This document shows, piece by piece, positions 12,301 to 48,882 of a stretch of 64,000 nucleotides of DNA. The stretch is from Undaria pinnatifida (Eukaryota; Sar; Phaeophyceae; Laminariales; Alariaceae): the NCBI GenBank assembly GCA_012845835.1, contig JABAKD010000020.1:4730220-4794219 (forward strand), given 5' to 3'. The notes under the pieces were generated by a model. The model made no database searches. It was not told the DNA's origin and was given only the letters and a program-made list of their open reading frames with translations. The stretch's first letter is position 1. Every line of letters begins with the position of its first letter. A program made the position numbers and the translations under genes.

Positions 12301-15300
12301 TCCCTCACAAGTGTTCGCCCAGACGCATCAACTCTGAAGAGTTTTTAGCGCTGCTCGATAGAGTGCGGTTGAGCGCAACCGAGATGGCTCTGACGCGCGC
12401 AGCTGGTGGTGGGCGTAGACAACCATGTCGTGGTGGACGCGTACACACCCACCCACAGGTTGTGAGTTGGATTATTCCAGCTAAAGGTAGACCAGGGTTT
12501 CGGGCCGTCCCTGAGATGGGTGCCGACGGCAGAGGAACTAGCGGCGAGGTCGGGGTCGGGGTGAAGCAGGGACCTCCGTCGGTGGCAGTCCAGCTGCGTC
12601 ATCTAGTGTGGGACACGTGCCGTCGCACACAAAGGCTGCCCATAGCAGCAGAACGTAATCGCATTGATTCGTGACGTGGTCATCTTCTGCGTGACACTCT
12701 ATACACAGGGAAGTGCGGTGTCAAGGTGTCGGTAGCGGTTGCGTCGAAATTTTGCAGATGACGGGAAGCGAGAGGTTCTTTTTCAGTTCCTACTTCGGAA
12801 GATGTTGCGAAGTTCCTCCCAAGCAGTCGTGGTAAGGAAGAGCCTAGACTGCCGCAAAAAATGCCCGGTCGCAGCCGTGGCAGAGTACCGACAGGAGGCG
12901 GAATCCATGCACGGGTCACTGACATAGAGGTCAGGATTCTTGTTCCCGAGTGTTATAGAATGCGGGAATATGATATATGTGGCGTCAACGCCGGCGCAGT
13001 TGACCACCAACCTCCACATCCATTTGCGGGCGGCGGGCACGGAGGACATGGAGCGGTACACCGTGCGCTCTCCCGGTTGGGAGGGGCGGCGAGCCATAAG
13101 ATGGACCGTACGGCCATAGGCATTGTTATGGAATACGTGGGGTGACAGTCCGCAACCGTCGCACACAAAGAAACATAGGGTTAACAGCCTCCGCCGCCGT
13201 GGCGGGGGTGAAGCGTTCTCGCCAAACCGCGTTCATAGAGGCGGACGTCCTGCAGCTGTCCACAAAGTTTGCATGTCCGTACACAGCGTGTGCACGGGAT
13301 TATCGAAGCCGAATCTACTGGGGGCCAAGGTACTATAAAAGTTTGGGTATCCTAAGGGCGACAAGAAACCCGAAGAAAGGATGCTAACAAGAGACAAATC
13401 AACTGCGCCCTGAGAGAAGGGCAAAGGGGCAATAAGTATGGGTGTGATCTCATGCCGCAGCAGAGAGGCCTCATTGATCCCAAACTATATACGAATTACA
13501 GCGTCGGCGAAAGGTTACAGCAGTAATCTTGGAGCAAAACTCCGGGGACGGAAGAAGGCCGTCCCCTTCTTCCGTCCCTGGGGTGGGAGAAAAGCCTGAT
13601 AGCTGTACAGAAAAAGCAAGACGATCCCATTTGCGTCGTCGGCTCCTGTGCAGCAGCTAGAGAGAGTAGGAAGCGGTTAGGGAAAACAGACCATCCCGCC
13701 CACCCATCATTGGGCGCTAAACACGCCGACAAGGACATCAGTTTTATTTTTTAGTGTTATTTTACCGGGGTAACTACTTTCTGCGACGAGGTGCCGCGTT
13801 GATTACCATCGAATCAACGCGGGGGTAGTAGCCCTGGGTGAGAGTCTCCGGCTGATCGCAGCAGAGAGGCCTTATTGACCCCAAACTATATACGAGTTAA
13901 AGCGTCGGCGATATGTTACAGCAGTAAAGTGGCGGTGCGCCAGAGCTACATGATCGCATTATTGCGGGAAACCATCATATTAACTCCAGGTTACGGGCGC
14001 ACTTCCCCCGTCGCGCCAGGTGGTTATAACCGCCTTATATCGGGATACCGTTTTACTAAGACCACCTTATTGGGGAACCCCTACATATATACCCGAGCTC
14101 CAAAAGGGCTAATGGTCGCTTCAATATACCCACTATTCGTGGATTAAAAGTCAAGGGTCAAGAAGCCAGCGCCGAAAACCGTAACGCTCGGTGGTGGTGG
14201 TGGTGGTGATGGTGATGGTGATGGTGGTGGCGGCGGGCGCGGCTCGTTGCAATCCTATTGGTTAGAGCTGCAGCACTAGTGGCGAGCCACACGATTACGG
14301 TTCGCGCTTACGCGCTCACGGTGCGGCGGCTAGGGCTGACTATATATCTGGACGTGCCAAGCGGGATTAGGTTCGGGTGGGATCAAGGTAGAAGGTTGAC
14401 CAATCAAAATGGAGGTGTGGTTTATTGGGGTGGTCCGACAACGCCTTTCACCTTGGAACACCATTAATAAAACCCTGATAATAACGCCGTTGTAGTCTTC
14501 ACATTAAATCGGTCCTTTCTGTACCCAACGTCACCAGTAGAACACCGTATTAATAATATTCATCCCGATTGTTCGTCCCAGAGAGACACAAATAGGTCAG
14601 ACTGCTGTGAAACAGAGAAAGCAAAAACAAATAATCGCAAACGAACAGAGGAAGGCAAACTAAGTGTAAGCGTACCGGATACGAATAGCGTGTGGCTTGC
14701 AAGTTAGTGCTGCAGTTGTAAGATTGCAAGGAGGTCCTATCGGTGGCGGAGGCGGCGGCGGGTGTGGGCCTTCGAGGGCATCCTCCCAGCGTAACACACG
14801 CACGAGGACGGGGGGGAGACGATACCGGTGTAATGACAGCTACTTACGTTGTACGCGCGGGTATTGTTTAAGTAGCCGTTCCTGCTATCATACGTAGGTA
14901 CTGCTGTGTGTCCTCGTATGCTGCTGCTGTGCGACGACCGGATTGCCGTTCCTGCTATCGTACGTAGGTATGCTGTGTGTCCTCGTATGCTGCTCCTGCT
15001 GCTGCTGTTCGACGATCGGATTGCTTGCTGCTGCTGTGTACAAGGTGCAAAACTCATAGTATTAACAGTGCGCACAAAACATAAATGAAGGACAAGCGAG
15101 CAAGCGGGCGGCAGGCGGGTTCTCGAAGCATAGTGATGCTGCGGGGGGCGGGGTACAGATTGCAAGGGCAGGTGCATTGAGTTGTTGCCGAGCGCGCCGC
15201 GATGTCAGCGTCAGGGAACTTTGACTTGGGCCGGGGGGGGGGGGGGGGCTGGTCAAGGCTTCGCACCTCGCAGTACACCAATTACAATGCGTAGAGCAGC

Positions 15301-19000: not shown

Positions 19001-22000
19001 GATGAGTTCAAAACACAGGTGTAAAACTTCTTCGACTGAGTTTTTCGACTGACGGATCCAGTCGAAAAAGTCGAGTTTTTCGACTGGATTCCCCCGTCGG
19101 AAAACTCAGTCGAAAAAAGTTGAGTCGAAAAAGCCCTTTTTCGACTGTGTAAGAAAGCCCGATTTGGGCTTCAGTCGAAAACGGCCGTTTTCGATTAACA
19201 AATCCGACTGTATAAGAAATAGCCCTAGACCTACTATTATAGGAAAACATATTTTTGGCTCTCAGAACTGAATTCTGGGCCAATTATACCAGTTTTACTC
19301 GGCTGGACTGTCGAAAACACCGATACACTCTTCAAGATCTATCACGTAGTTTTCCGAGGGCTTTCTGGAGCAGTTTCCGTTTCTCCAGGGTCTCGTTTTG
19401 ATTTTTGGCGCAACAAATCAGTTTTCAAGAATATGCAATGTTGCTCAAAACTGGTGCCAAAAATAATGGATTTTTGAGGATATTTGGCTAAAAATCATGA
19501 GGTCGTCAGAATTGGCAAATTGGACGAACAGACAAGCTACGAGTCTGGAGAAACGGATAAGTGCGTCAGAAAGCTCTCGGAAAACTACGGGGAGCATTCT
19601 GAAGAGTCTAAAGGTGTTTTTGGTCATCCCTCCGAGTAAGTCGCGTATCATCAGCCGAAAATCTCAGTTCTGAGGGCCCAAAAGTGTTTCTCATAATAGT
19701 TGGTCTTAGACCTATGAGACCGGTGAGGGCCCACATCAACGAAGAGCACGGAAAATCGTAATTCGATTTTTTTTTCCTATTTCATGAAAAATACACCAAA
19801 AATTCAGCTCTGCTTCTCATCAGGAACAGCGTAGTGCGTTCTAAAAAATATAAAAAAATTCAAAAAACGCAAAAGGGTCAACGAACACCCGTGGGCAACG
19901 ACCGAGGCGAGCGATGGTTAGCGTCCTCCCCGGAGCGCCGCGTCTAGCGGCAGATTGCTTTGGCCGGCAGCGGCTTGGAGCTTGGAGGCTATGGTTCTAG
20001 GCGTCTCTTGGATGGGGTGGCGCCACCCCGCCGCCCGACACGGACAGCAGCGACGGGGATATAGCGGTCGAACTTCTGAGCGAAGTCATCATGTGATAGT
20101 TGGTCGAGTAACTTTCGAGGTGCAGGGCGACGAAAAACTGGGTTTGCTGATGTCTCGATTGTTTTCGAAGCGTCGCAGGCGGTCTACGCTGTGCTTAGGA
20201 CCTTCGAAGGCCGCGCTGCGGCTGCTCCGGTGGTCCTACGTCTCGCAATGGTGGCTTCTCGCCTCTCAATCAGCCGACGACATGGCACCGATTCGCGTGG
20301 CCGGCTTCGGTTACACAAGAACAAGCCATGTCTAGGTGGACAAACTCCCCAAATTGAATTTCGATTTTCGTCTAAATTCGACCGAGAAAGTCTTTTTTTA
20401 CTTGTTTGTTGAATTTGATTTTTCGTAATAATTCTAAGAATGCCTGCTTGGTGATTTATTATTGACCAATCAAATGCAAATTAAATTCAATTCTAGGCAA
20501 AATATCGAAATTCGATTTGGCAAGTTCCTCGTTAATTCGGGCCCTGACAATGGAAGGCCAAGAGTTTGAAATTCCCGAAGATCCCAGCCAAACTTTGCCC
20601 AAACGGTCGCTCGTGGACCCAATTTCGTAGAATTATTTGTTGAAACTTTGCAGAACTCAGGGAAAAAACGAGTTCTCGCGGAGATCTTGGCCAACATCGG
20701 CCTGAGAATGTCTCAAGCGGATCTCGGATTAGACGCGGCGCAATTTCGTGTTCTCCACACACGTCGTTCGACGAAATCAACGACAGCGTCGTGAACTCTG
20801 AACGTGGCTAGCTCGTTAGGGGCTCCGACCCCCCCTTGGTGTAGAGCGCTCACTCTACGGCCGGTGATTTGTGGCGGGCGCCGATCAGGCTTCTGTTAAA
20901 AAACACACTTGGCGGCTGGTGTGTAGAAAACCGAGACAAAAACTCTTTATCGTCTCCCAACGGGCGAAAAACAGAATTTTGAGAGGATGTGACGGAATAC
21001 CACAGGACAACACAAGCAACCTCTCACTTCCTAGAGCATGGACGCGGTAAACTCTTCAGCGCTGTCACCTACACCCATGTGGCCTTGTCCGGAACAAAGA
21101 GGAGTGGCCATGGGTTCTCTCTATCTCGCGATCGATGGTCAATCGTGTTTGGTGGGCAGTGTTGATCAAGGGTTGATGAAAATAGACACAATGACCTGTT
21201 GGACCGCATGACCCAAAAAAGAGCCAGAAAAAACACAAAGTAGCCAAATTTTCCCCATAGCGACGTTACCCGGAATCTTTCAGCAAATAACCCCCAAAAA
21301 AGGTTGCAAACTTTTAGGCCAAACTCTCGGCTTTCCATTGTCAGACTTTCCCCATACCGACGTTACCCGGAATCTTTCCGCAAATAACCCCCCGAAAAAG
21401 TTTGCAAACTTTTAGGCCAAACTATAGGCTTTCCATTTTCAGAAAAGTGTACAACCTTTTTTTGGGTTTATTTGCTGAAAGATTCCGGGTAACGTCGCTA
21501 TGGGGAAAATTTGGCTACTATGGTTTTTTTCTGGCTCTTTTTTGGGTCATGCGGTCCAACAGGTCATTGTGTCTATTTTCATCAACCCTTGATCAACACT
21601 GCCCACCAAACACGATTGACCTTCGATCTCGAGATAGAGACAACCCATGGCCACTCCTCTTTGTTCCGGACAAGGCCACATGGGTGTGGGTGACAGCGCT
21701 GAAGAGTTTATCTCGATCCATGCCCTAGGACGTGAGAGGTTGCTTGTGTTGTCCTGTGGTATTCCGTCACATCCTCTCAAAATTCTGTTTTTCGCCCGTT
21801 GGGAGACGATAAAGAGTTTTTGTCTCGGTTTTCTACACACCAGCCGCCAAGTGTGTTTTTTAACAGAAGCCTGATCGGCGCCCGCCACAAATCACCGGCC
21901 GTAGAGTGAGCGCTCTACACCAAGGGGGGGTCGGAGCCCCTAACGAGCTAGCCACGTTCAGAGTTCACGACGCTGTCGTTGATTTCGTCGAACGACGTGT

Positions 22001-25000
22001 GTGGAGAACACGAAATTGCGCCGCGTCTAATCCGAGATCTGCTTGAGACATTCTCAGGCCGATGTTGACCAAGATCTCCGCGAGAACTCGTTTTTTCCCT
22101 GAATTCTGGGAAGTTTCAACAAATAATTCTATCAAATTGGGTCCATAGGCGACCGTTTGGGCAAAGTTTGGCTGGGATCTTCGGGAATTTCAAACTCTTG
22201 GCCTTCCATTGTCACCGGTCTTAGTCAATGTGTGCTACAGGCTTTGCGTACCCGTGGTTCGTCGAATGATACCAGTACTTTTGCTTGCTTTGCCACATGG
22301 AATATCTTACAGTATCGTGTGATCTCTACTATCAATAACACACAACCCGAGTTAATCGCGAGCCCACATTATGTGAAAGAGAAACGAGTTGCTGCGATAA
22401 TCGGCAATTCAAGTAGCTTTGTCACCGAGTCGTAGCCTTTCCGGTGTTCTCAACCCACGAAAACACACCAGATAAAATGCCCAACATATGTACTGTTCGG
22501 GTTAGGGTTAGGGCTGGGTTGCGTCGATGCCCTCTCGTGATTCGCAAACAATACATAGACCGAGAAGGGTGGAGTGCCTGGTGTGATGTCAGCGTGTTGG
22601 TGACTCGCTCTGGCGAGAAGGAAGTGATCGGAAGGCGTGTAGTGGTTGGGGCAAAACCAAGGCGTGTTGATGGCTCCCTTCGGCGAGGGGTGATCGAAAG
22701 ACGTTTGTTTGTGGGAGCAACATCGCAGTTGGCGAGAAGGCAATCATCGGGAGACTTTTGTTGGTGGAAGCGAATTCACGGCGGGTCGGTTGCTCGCTTT
22801 GGCGAGGTAGCAGTCATCGAGATACGTGCATATTGTGGGAGCAACATCACCGTCTGTTGGTGGCTAGCTTTGGCCAGAAGGCAGTTAACGGGAGACGTGT
22901 TGGTGGGAGCAAAATCACAGCGTGCGGGAGGCTCGCTTCTTCGAGAAGGCTGTAATGGGGGGTGTGATCCGGCGTCATTTTAGTGTAACGTGCATGTCTC
23001 CTCCCGCGGCATTGGTAAAGTAATCGAAAGTCACACCTTTTCGGTTGATTTCAAGTACGTTCTACTGGAGTCCCATATCATAGCATACTGTACGTTCCTT
23101 CCCCCCGTGGTTACTGTAACCGTGGCCGGCGCGCTGGCCCGTGTGTCGTTCAACAACGATGTGGCCGCGGAGAGAGCAGATAATCGCAGCAACAGCAGTA
23201 GCACCACCAGCAGCAGTCAAAAATATCAAAGTAGGGTTTCCGCAACATGCTGATGCGAACGAAACCGGGTCACACGCCTTTCCACCCAGGGTACATTGTT
23301 TTGGCCGTTTTCGATTGAAAAGTCGAAACTATGTGGGGATGATATTGGGAGGGTTTCCACACGACTGAACGCAGTTGCACGTTTGGCGATAATCATTGAC
23401 ACAAGTGAGAGATTGTGTGCTGACGTGCACTGGTATGTACATAATGTGTGAGAGGGTTTCTGTCTACTGCTGTGTGTGAGCACGTGTATACTGTGTTGGA
23501 ATGCTGCTGTGTGTGAGCTCATGTTGCTGCGTGCGAGCTCGTATGCTGGTGGGACTGAGCTGGTAGACCAGTGGCTCGCTCCGCTCGAAATCACTTGTTG
23601 GCCCGCGTGCAGTAGTTGAACTGCACTGGCATCCTAGTGGCTCGCTTCGCTTGAATTCACTCGTCGGTCCGCGTGTGCTTGTTGAACTGCACTGGTAGAC
23701 TAGTGGCTCGCTCCGCTTGAAATTACCTGTTGGTCCGTGTGTGCCAGCAAGACTGCGCTTGTAAACTAGTGGCTCGCTTCGCTCCAGATCACTTGCCGGT
23801 CCGCGTGTGTACTAGTGGGACTCAGCTTGCAGATTGCTGTGGGAGTAAGTCGAATATGTTTTGGTTTGATTTAAAGAACAAACCACAACAACACCCAAAA
23901 CAGCGTAAGGCCAACTCTTGTAATACACCGATTCTGACCACCGAAAATAAATGCTTTAGCGCCTTCGCAGGCGTGTTTGACTCCGGGGGGCGGGGGGATC
24001 AGGCCCGCTTTTCTCAAAGTCCAACTGGATTTTTTGCGAGACCCGTCCAACGACGTTTGCCGTTTGTTCAGAATAAGAGTTTGATTTTTACGATTCACCG
24101 CATTTTCCCAAAATCAGTCTCGGACGCTATTTTCCGCGAAAAAGGCCGTTTTTTCGATTAAATTGCGATACATATCCGAAATTCGTTTGCAATGTGTTTT
24201 TATAAAATTTAAATTGACCTTAAGAAACGGCAAACGTCGTTGGATGCGTCTCGCAAAAAGAGTAGTCGGACTTTGGGAAAAGCGGCCCGATTACGCCGTA
24301 ACCCGAATCCAACACGCCTGCAAAGGTGCTGAAACCTGTTCAGAATCGGTTTAAGGCCAACTCTTACAAGGACTTAGCCGAAACCGAAAAATGAGACGAG
24401 TTTTCGGGTCGCCGAACCAGACTGGCAAAATCGAATCGACAGCCCTTACAATGAAACCCAAATTTTACAGATTACTTTCGGACAGTTCTCGCGAAAATGT
24501 CAATAACGACGATGGCTTGACTATTATACGTATTCGGACGACTTCGTAGTACCAAGGCATCTCAGCGCACGCAGATGAAGCTTTGTGAGCGGGGAGAGGG
24601 AAAACACGTCGTGTGCACATCAAGCGAAGAAGGTTGTCTTCCCCCTCGCTCTCGTTGACATGTCGCAGACGCTGTCCTCGTCCTTGGCTACAAGAGATGT
24701 GAGGTTTGAGTTAAACGTTTGTTTGGCGAATGCCGCAATCGCGACTGCGAGTAGTGTGGCAAGGCTCTCGTAGCCGTCACCATCACTATTAATAAGCGAT
24801 TCCATCGGCTCGTGGTGATGCCCGAGTTGTGTGCCAGTTGGTAGCGGGACACAGCAGCAGCACGAACACGCCCATGATGCATCTTGTTGCTTGCTCAGTA
24901 GATGCGTCTTCTTGGGTCTTGCACTGCTGTGTTCGGGTTATTTCCACGCTTGCTGCCTCCCATGACGAATGGAAACCTGCAATGATCCAAATCCAGACGC

Positions 25001-31683: not shown

Positions 31684-33171
31684 TCATATACCCAACGACT
31701 CGATCCAATCCGCGGCCCTAAACTCGGCGGTCCAGACGAGCGGAGCGTCCGTTGTAACACTGACCTCGTCCGCCACTACGCAGTTCGACGAACTCACGAG
31801 GACACCGAATTCGAGGGAGCCGCCGTCGAGGTTCCACTTGAGTCCGTCGGTGCTTACTGACCTGCAGGCGCCGCCCACCGGAATTAGGCCGACGGTGGGA
31901 CCCTCAAACCGCGGGTCTGGCTCGATGACATGGCTCAGCCCTGGCTGAAGCAAAAATGCGACGTTTTCGGACCCCATGAGGACGAGCCGGGAGAAGCGGG
32001 AGGTGTAGGCGTGTAGGACGCTGATGCCCGCCATCTCGTGGTCGAAGCGCCCGCCGAAGGCACCGAGGCTCACCACGGTCGCGGGGCAGACGGGGTGCGG
32101 ATCACTGCTTCCTGCTGCTGCTTCTGCTGTTGCTGCTGACGTTGTTGTTGACGCTACTACTGATGTTGTTGACGCTGTCGTTGCTGTTACTACTGCTGGT
32201 GCTGCAAGCGCAGCTCCTGCTGTTACTGCTGCTGCTATCGACAGCCGGGCCTCCACCTCGACCAGGCACTTCTCGAAGTCGTTGTGGTCCTGGTCCTCCA
32301 CCAGCTTCACGTCGGTGCCAAGGGCCGAGTAGAAGGCGGAGACGTCCGGGCGGAGCGAGTCTAGATCGCCAACTATCACGTCGGGGATAAATCGCTCCCG
32401 CTCCCCTGGGAGTTCGCCGTCGAAGCTATCGTGGAGCCGGTTGGCGGCGCCGTCGGCGCAGACGCGGATCGCCGCTCCTTCCCACATGCGGCGCAATAGG
32501 TGCTTGGCCTCGTAGTCGCCTTTCGTATTAAGGAGTATGAGAGCGAGAGGCTCCTCGATACCTTCAGCTCGGCTGGATAAGGCGGCGACGGGGTCGGAAC
32601 CGAGGCCCCGCTCCGCGGGAGCTGTAGCATCTTCGGTCGATGCTATTGGTGGTGGTGGTGGTGGTACTGACGGCGGGGGTGTTGAGAGGAAGGTGTTGCG
32701 GTGGCGCTTGGAAGGGACGGTCGAGAAGGAACAGTGCGACATCGCCGTGGACGATAAGGAGTAAGGAGCAACGTACCGCGTTCGGCGCCGAGTGCTCGCG
32801 GCCACTGGGGACAGCAGATGGGTTGAGAACGCTGCGCCGATGATGTTGCTGTCGATGCTGCTGAGGTGGCGTCTGTGGTTGTAGTGGTGGCAGCGGTGGT
32901 GGTGGTGATGGTGGAGGTAGTTGTTGACGTTGCTGCTGTTGAACGACGAGGCGAAAGCAGCAGCGGCAGCAGTGCACCCTCGAGGGTTGCTGCGAGGGTT
33001 GCTGCGAGGGTTGCTGCAGCCACGCGCGTAGAAGGTCGTGAACGCTCGACCCCCGCGCAAGTTCAGCAAGGCGAAAATCACGGCGGTGTTTACGACGGGC
33101 GCACTGGACGCGCGGCGTACCATGTAGGTTGGTCTCTCTGTTGATGTTCGCCGCTGTGTGAGCTCGCCCAT
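31684..33171 (-). CDS. TPK1: Thiamine pyrophosphokinase, intronless, long N-terminal extension
   Basis: The enzyme transfers pyrophosphate from ATP to thiamine to make the cofactor thiamine diphosphate. It is a single 495-codon frame. The catalytic core begins near residue 208: CADGAANRLHD at 238-248, VGDLDS at 267-272, DQDHNDFEKCL at 293-303, GAFGGRFDHEMA at 370-381, and the thiamine-binding-domain motif GLKWNL at 443-448 followed by an SSSN segment. Typical enzymes are 240-270 aa. The extra length is a low-complexity N-terminus of about 200 residues (Arg/Ser-rich, a His run at 87-92, a Pro run near 165-175) and an Ala/Thr-rich insertion at about 311-355 inside the core. The first 50 residues could be an organelle-targeting peptide; Met17 or Met143 are alternative starts. 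It is the only intronless gene here. A TRIM-like element ends 24 bp upstream of the ATG. Confidence 0.88.
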   Translation of the reverse strand: MGELTQRRTSTERPTYMVRRASSAPVVNTAVIFALLNLRGGRAFTTFYARGCSNPRSNPRSNPRGCTAAAAAFASSFNSSNVNNYLHHHHHHRCHHYNHRRHLSSIDSNIIGAAFSTHLLSPVAASTRRRTRYVAPYSLSSTAMSHCSFSTVPSKRHRNTFLSTPPPSVPPPPPPIASTEDATAPAERGLGSDPVAALSSRAEGIEEPLALILLNTKGDYEAKHLLRRMWEGAAIRVCADGAANRLHDSFDGELPGERERFIPDVIVGDLDSLRPDVSAFYSALGTDVKLVEDQDHNDFEKCLVEVEARLSIAAAVTAGAALAAPAVVTATTASTTSVVASTTTSAATAEAAAGSSDPHPVCPATVVSLGAFGGRFDHEMAGISVLHAYTSRFSRLVLMGSENVAFLLQPGLSHVIEPDPRFEGPTVGLIPVGGACRSVSTDGLKWNLDGGSLEFGVLVSSSNCVVADEVSVTTDAPLVWTAEFRAADWIESLGI

Positions 33172-33915
33172 TCTGTGTTATGTGTTCTGTGAGTATGTGA
33201 GGAAGTAGACTAAAAATGTTGAACAACAAATGCTACTCGAGTTATTTCCTTCTAAACTCGTTTTTCCACCACATTCTCCCCCACTAAACCTGACATATTT
33301 CCCAGATTATGTCAGGAACCCCGATGAGGTACCCAGTATCCAATGCGACATTTTCGGTATTGGAGTGACTTGCAATGATCCTCTACATTGCTCTCATCGT
33401 TGTTTTTCAAGTGGTAGAGTTTTACAGGTTCTTGAACGTGAGAAAATCCCTTTTTTTTTCTTTTTTCTGGGAAAGACGGTGAGAATCGAACCAGCGACCT
33501 CACTGTTCATAATCTCACGTCCTGCCGTCGACGCCATTGTGAGGAAGTAGACTAAAAATGTTGAACAACAAATGCTACTCGAGTTATTTCCTTCTAAACT
33601 CGTTTTTCCACCACAAGTATCAAGTGGGTTTCCGCTATACTTTGGGTGGCATACCGTTTCGGGGTCGTGGTTTGCCTTTCACGTGATGAGTTGAGAGCTG
33701 GAGCCGCCCACAGAAGGAGTGCACCCGTGCACGGGACAAAACGGGTGCAGTGCACCTGCCGTTGGATTTTTCGCGGTCACTCCCGTGTTGCTGTAAGCCA
33801 GACAACGCTGGCTCTCTATTTTGTCGACGGGCGGAGCCTAGCGCGAAAGACGGGCGGCCCTTGGTCGTTTGTCGTCGAGCCAGCCGCATTTCCTGTCGGT
33901 TCTGCCTCCGGATCC
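33172..33915. promoter_or_regulatory. Shared promoter interval TPK1 / GPCR, occupied by a mini-retrotransposon
   Basis: The 744 bp between the TPK1 and GPCR start codons contains a 420-bp TRIM-like element (33196-33615) starting 24 bp from the TPK1 ATG. The remaining unique DNA is 33616-33915, so the original spacing was about 320 bp, similar to the other head-to-head pair in this window. Confidence 0.55.
33196..33615 (-). mobile_element. TRIM/SMART-type miniature LTR retrotransposon, intact
   Basis: Two identical 78-bp direct repeats (33196-33273 and 33538-33615) begin TGTG and end CACA. The flanks are a 4-bp duplication, AGTA (33192-33195 and 33616-33619). On the minus strand a TGG-starting priming-site-like stretch (TGGCGTCGACGGCAGGA) follows the 5' repeat after one base, and the purine tract GTGGGGGAGAA abuts the 3' repeat. 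There is no coding capacity in the 264-bp interior. Confidence 0.85.

Positions 33916-48882
<14,967 letters not shown>

Follow-up and report, generated by a model that had tools for sequence, protein, structure and literature searches.

A probable TRIM-type LTR retrotransposon of the kelp Undaria pinnatifida with mixed primer-site alleles among its copies

The locus and its 420-bp element

The window, i.e. the whole stretch of 64,000 nucleotides of Undaria pinnatifida DNA that was analysed, carries a thiamine pyrophosphokinase (TPK) gene and a GPCR gene (Table 1). We modelled the two genes as lying head to head, since joining the GPCR exons from the ATG at 33916 improved the match to Dicty_CAR to 8.8e-10, compared to 1.4e-5 for one ORF alone. 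The interval between this ATG and the first ATG of TPK at 33171 measures 744 bp. The TPK ORF starts with a long N-terminal extension in which simple runs abound (32494-33171), and the TPK domain begins at residue 227; the leader that follows from the second in-frame Met at 33123 is basic-hydrophobic and looks like a signal peptide. A 420-bp element is inserted on the minus strand between the two genes, and the original prediction that it sits in their common interval, 24 bp from the TPK start codon, was exact for the first ATG (72 bp for the second Met). In the direction from the 5' LTR to TPK, seven upstream ATGs come with the element, and its geometry makes the insertion a candidate regulatory change for this gene.

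Table 1 Features of the element and of the neighbouring genes in the window.
Feature	Position	Strand	Basis
Thiamine pyrophosphokinase gene, 495-aa ORF; in-frame second Met at 33123	31684-33171	-	PF04263 and PF04265
GPCR gene exon 1, head-to-head	33916-34023	+	our exon model
GPCR further exons	35830-35993, 39376-39499, 42091-42696	+	our exon model
Whole element, probably TRIM-type, 420 bp	33196-33615	- (sense = minus)	repeats and 40 other genomic copies examined
5' LTR in sense orientation, 78 bp, TGTG..CACA	33538-33615	-	direct repeat comparison
3' LTR in sense orientation, 78 bp, identical to 5' LTR	33196-33273	-	direct repeat comparison
18-nt primer-binding site TGGCGTCGACGGCAGGAC, exact complement of tRNA-Ser(CGA) 3' end with CCA	33519-33536	-	genomic tRNA comparison
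Polypurine tract GGGGGAGAA, adjoins 3' LTR	33274-33282	-	sequence
Purine-rich simple tract, differs between copies	33446-33474	-	copy alignment
Target duplication AGTA, left	33192-33195		sequence
Target duplication AGTA, right	33616-33619		sequence

The element is bounded by two identical 78-bp direct repeats (TGTGAGG...CACCACA on the plus strand), whose exact match stops at TG and CA, and the tetranucleotide AGTA is duplicated at both flanks. Among the eight exact direct repeat pairs listed for the window (at least 40 bp long, 60-15,000 bp apart and built from 20-mers occurring at most six times), this pair alone combines TG..CA ends with a flanking duplication. On the minus strand, a single base separates the 5' LTR from TGG, and a run of nine purines, GGGGGAGAA, abuts the 3' LTR. 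Repeats, duplication, orientation, primer site and purine tract were all as originally predicted, and so was the lack of coding capacity: since the longest ATG ORF on the sense strand has 47 codons, a length reached in 434 of 2000 shuffles, the 264-bp interior is non-coding. A Pfam search gave no match above cut-off for this ORF or for a 113-codon antisense stretch. RNA folding gave a z of -2.91 for the whole element (0/100 shuffles as good) and of -2.44 for the interior alone (4/200 shuffles as good); we make no claim of a packaging signal from these values.

The LTR contained no tRNA- or 5S-like sequence according to ARAGORN and cmscan, and no hammerhead ribozyme in terms of an Rfam match at E values up to 5 or of the sequence CTGATGA, which we take to be the hammerhead motif. 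Pol III boxes, as judged by the consensus that we assume for A and B boxes, were considered as the promoter of a TRIMp3-like element, with an A box that shares bases with the primer site and a B box that follows at a spacing of 33 nt. The A box has one mismatch and the B box is perfect, and a sense pair with this spacing arose in 76 of 5000 shuffles, or 134 of 5000 if the primer site was kept. Against this, 13 such pairs occur over both strands of the window, the element's own included, the A box is a consequence of the primer-site sequence, neither ARAGORN nor cmscan reported a tRNA match, and the boxes are located outside of the LTR, unlike those of Helenus. We thus rate these boxes as weak promoter candidates and transcription by Pol III as very improbable.

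Elsewhere in the window, an inverted repeat whose arms measure about 772 bp and are 96.6% identical (20545-22214) resembles a long-TIR transposon or a hairpin. A pair of 71-bp direct repeats, 91.5% alike and 401 bp apart from start to start (13456-13927), marks a possible second TRIM.

A dispersed family in the kelp genome

The Undaria pinnatifida assembly (511,146,479 bases in 68 contigs) was searched with the whole element as query. This yielded at least 48 matches, window copy counted (40 scored of 428 candidates), so that the copy number is a lower bound. From 39 stretches, 40 copies or arrays were examined besides the window copy; the 48 additionally comprise four partial matches and three array units that received no separate assessment. 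Thirty-five of these 40 copies start with TGTG and end with CACA, the exceptions being L014, L026, L033, L036 and L043. An exact 4-bp target duplication, expected by chance in about 1 in 256 per copy, flanks 31 of the 40, and in none is the duplication longer. It is lacking in nine copies (L009, L014, L026, L027, L032, L033, L038, L040 and L043), of which L009 and L043 sit in broken arrays and L026 is without an LTR tip. The 31 duplications are not all independent, as L035 and L045 have common flanks and represent one event, and L020 and L020b have a common TTTG junction. In the latter case, a younger and an older copy are arranged head to tail and each of their three junctions reads TTTG, which looks like an insertion of one exactly at the duplication of the other.

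These data bear on the alternative that the 78-bp segment was merely duplicated locally and is immobile. Exact direct repeats at a single site are what such a duplication would leave behind, but the genome search, set beforehand as a possible refutation of the original prediction, revealed dispersed copies with TGTG..CACA ends and 4-bp duplications of their own, and their flanks are mostly unrelated, a few containing other repeats in common. This refutes a local duplication, to which we assign next to no probability.

Two arrays carry a single outer duplication: L024 with three units sharing LTRs (CACG) and L018 with two units (ATCT). With the LTR alone as query, at least 40 perfect matches were obtained (all 40 scored, of 541 candidates). 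Of the five isolated-looking ones that were read, L168 proved to be a solo LTR flanked by a TAAA duplication; family interior borders L169, L170 and L171, and no duplication flanks L172. The first and last 78 bases are identical in 14 of 39 single-unit copies, window copy counted. LTRs of 78 bp therefore date insertions poorly, and, while the identity of the two repeats in the window is real, the recent insertion suggested from it in the original prediction is to be taken with caution. At C30:24898162-24905466, seven primer sites of the C type described below lie on one strand about 0.9-1.8 kb apart, as in a larger tandem array containing the element (four of the seven were read).

We found no autonomous helper, having followed one candidate locus: at C18:11341289, an exact LTR is bordered on the right by unrelated sequence, and the locus was rejected as neither a duplication nor, within 6 kb downstream, a second LTR was present. 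Scans of viral contigs with LTR, primer-site and tRNA patterns gave 0 matches, as did a scan of prokaryote contigs with the tRNA-Ser pattern.

Taken together, the paired TG..CA LTRs, target duplication, tRNA primer site, polypurine tract, absence of coding sequence, and dispersed copies with a solo LTR make it very probable that the element is a TRIM-type, non-autonomous miniature LTR retrotransposon with a tRNA-Ser primer, i.e. a new family of an already known kind. With 420 bp and LTRs of 78 bp, it is smaller than the range given for TRIMs in the part of PMC3281118 consulted (500-900 bp and LTRs of 100-350 bp). We did not treat size as defining, because PMC5963040, in the part available, bounds TRIM size only above, at 4 kb. 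The label "TRIM/SMART" of the original prediction holds for a small TRIM and does not for a strict SMART, i.e. the grass element FRetro129 with its 5-bp duplication.

Primer-site alleles and their tRNA-Ser counterparts

The primer site was compared in 38 copies, namely 37 others and the window copy, in an alignment where sense positions 80-97 make up the 18-nt site. Leaving out the simple purine tract, which itself varies more than the primer site, four of the seven sites with an entropy above 0.9 fall into these 18 nt (P = 1e-4, post hoc test). Classed by position 88, the copies comprise 24 C, 9 A, 4 T and 1 G; the exact aligned 18-mers are C in 17, A in 8, T in 4 and G in 1, with the other 8 distributed over six minor variants. 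Position 97 changes with the class; at position 98, 37 of the 38 copies have G. Some sites mix C and tRNA letters, i.e. L023 (CAGGCAGGAT), one copy with CAGACAGGAC, and L015, whose longer site has CAGTCGACGGCAGGAT after TGGCGTCG and was placed in class C. In the arrays, L018 has an A unit beside a C unit and L024 has C in all three units. Ten copies that are identical across the 373 columns used for the tree, primer site and simple tract being outside of these, split into 5 C, 3 A and 2 T. On the tree, which is poorly resolved (0 starred branches; two forced changes per label), the alleles change 11 times compared to 11.5 times in shuffles, and 92 of 200 shuffles were as low. The primer-site alleles thus do not follow the remainder of the element sequence.

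In order to relate the alleles to primers, tRNA-Ser 3' ends were predicted from the alleles first and the genome was searched afterwards. The tRNA-Ser pattern gave 100 matches, many of them retro-copies rather than genes, compared to 0 for the reversed control. ARAGORN, run on 29 of the 30 loci of the first pattern set and on 20 more, located the A-allele end in tRNA-Ser(CGA) genes (L062, L064, L153 and L157) and the T-allele end in tRNA-Ser(AGA) genes (L061, L075 and L076); both alleles match across 15 gene-encoded nucleotides plus CCA, and in none of these seven genes is CCA present in the DNA that follows. Rfam, applied to 20 loci, agreed on L061, L062 and L064 and also scored L052, L060 and L073, each of which is then followed by CCA. 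Exact 18-nt complements of the 3' end of one or the other isoacceptor, CCA counted, occur in 12 of the 38 copies, with the window copy (tRNA-Ser(CGA)) among them.

For allele C, the predicted tRNA failed. Its 15-nt end has 98 genome matches, of which 74 were read and a further 16 belong to copies already described; no tRNA gene was seen by eye at these 90 or by ARAGORN at 21 of the loci. Of the 74 read, all except L125 are flanked on at least one side by sequence of the element family. For the G allele (1 of 38 copies), ARAGORN found no tRNA gene at three matching loci. Because of the failed prediction, these sequences are most simply read as allele C being the element's own site, with A and T as tRNA copies.

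We propose the following mechanism. The LTR transcript would be packaged by an autonomous LTR element, perhaps a Copia or Gypsy helper with a primer site starting with TGGCGTCG and an LTR starting with TGTGGTGG, and tRNA-Ser isoacceptors would prime its copying, followed by integration. Plus-strand transfer may leave a heteroduplex at the primer site between the element's own sequence (allele C) and the tRNA copy (A or T), which are alike in 14 of 18 nt, and repair or replication would fix one of the two strands, giving near-identical copies with different primer sites. We consider it somewhat favoured that this resolution step occurred repeatedly, and give the same slight preference to the view that each insertion stores one such outcome, either the own site or a copy of the priming isoacceptor. 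If true, the family would be a natural, genome-wide ledger of primer choice.

A possible, though less likely, alternative is that the alleles are ordinary inherited markers of a few masters, spread by recombination of co-packaged RNAs and not repeatedly re-templated. Both lineages defined by sites 200 and 233 carry C, A and T, as recombination could give, and, tree support being weak, a few near-identical masters or RNA recombination could scatter the alleles. The ten copies that differ only at the primer site and in the simple tract nevertheless span all three classes. In addition, A and T are exact counterparts of two tRNA-Ser isoacceptors, for which reason tRNA templating occurred at least once for each of these alleles.

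Among the first 30 tRNA-Ser pattern matches (L048-L077, where L048 and L049 represent a single place), 22 have CCA right after the tRNA 3' end, and by eye most of these CCA ends are followed by a TG-containing LTR-like end. The tRNA-like part measures 20-81 nt over the 30 matches and is the whole tRNA plus CCA in L052 and L060; nine of the 30 contain a second copy of the same end within the locus. L048/L049 is a palindrome of two tRNA-Ser 3' halves, each followed by CCA and an LTR-like end. The same CCA was seen by eye in 15 of 21 matches of L148-L167, and ARAGORN labels some CCA-carrying loci (L052, L060, L073 and L074) as tRNA genes. Copying of a tRNA by reverse transcription normally stops before m1A58. 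If our reading is true, the LTR-like loci with a tRNA-Ser copy past position 58, two of them with the whole tRNA, would reflect a reverse transcriptase reading through this usual stop.

Relation to known small LTR elements

Whether tRNA sequence is inherited at the primer site is a question known mostly from retroviruses and yeast Ty1. For Ty1, Lauermann and Boeke reportedly found no inheritance of the sequence of the primer tRNA. In brown algae, TRIMs and LARDs have already been reported from Ectocarpus (PMC3145265), and LTR elements range from 3.9 to 14.5 kb according to the accessible part of a study of Ectocarpus from 2025 (PMC12477816); our limited literature search retrieved little on small non-coding LTR elements of these algae.

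As far as the consulted portions of the respective papers go, the kelp element shares two short LTRs, a primer site, a purine tract, lack of coding sequence, an inferred helper and solo LTRs with the TRIMs of plants, PbTRIM of ants and ta-TRIM of Echinococcus (PMC4558846). It differs from ta-TRIM in the primer, which is tRNA-Leu there and tRNA-Ser here, and from TRIMs in the mixing of primer-site alleles among near-identical copies. SMART/FRetro129 of grasses is likewise very small (292 bp) and non-coding, and its 85-bp terminal repeats with TGT..ACA ends resemble those of the kelp element, whereas it is described in the section of PMC3281118 at hand as grass-restricted and with a 5-bp duplication, compared to 4 bp (31 of 40 copies) in a brown alga. 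Helenus, Ajax and Cassandra (TRIMp3, PMC10886601) are, in the available text, also small LTR elements that possess a primer site and a purine tract, and animal Helenus has 4-bp duplications too; unlike in these elements, we found no small-RNA-derived sequence in the kelp LTR.

Beyond HIV-1, a limited literature search, based in part on excerpts, gave no account of mixed primer-site alleles in retrotransposons. The primer site of HIV-1 pairs with 18 nt of the tRNA and, when altered, is re-templated over these 18 nt from the tRNA used, according to the portion of PMC1797187 consulted, which is similar to what we propose for the kelp family. The reversion of HIV-1 is a viral experiment, whereas the kelp case concerns natural copies of a non-coding element. 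The kelp elements are tiny and abundant, and so young that the differences between near-identical copies are mainly confined to the primer site and the simple tract. Natural insertions of this family can thus show how tRNA sequence is inherited at the primer site.
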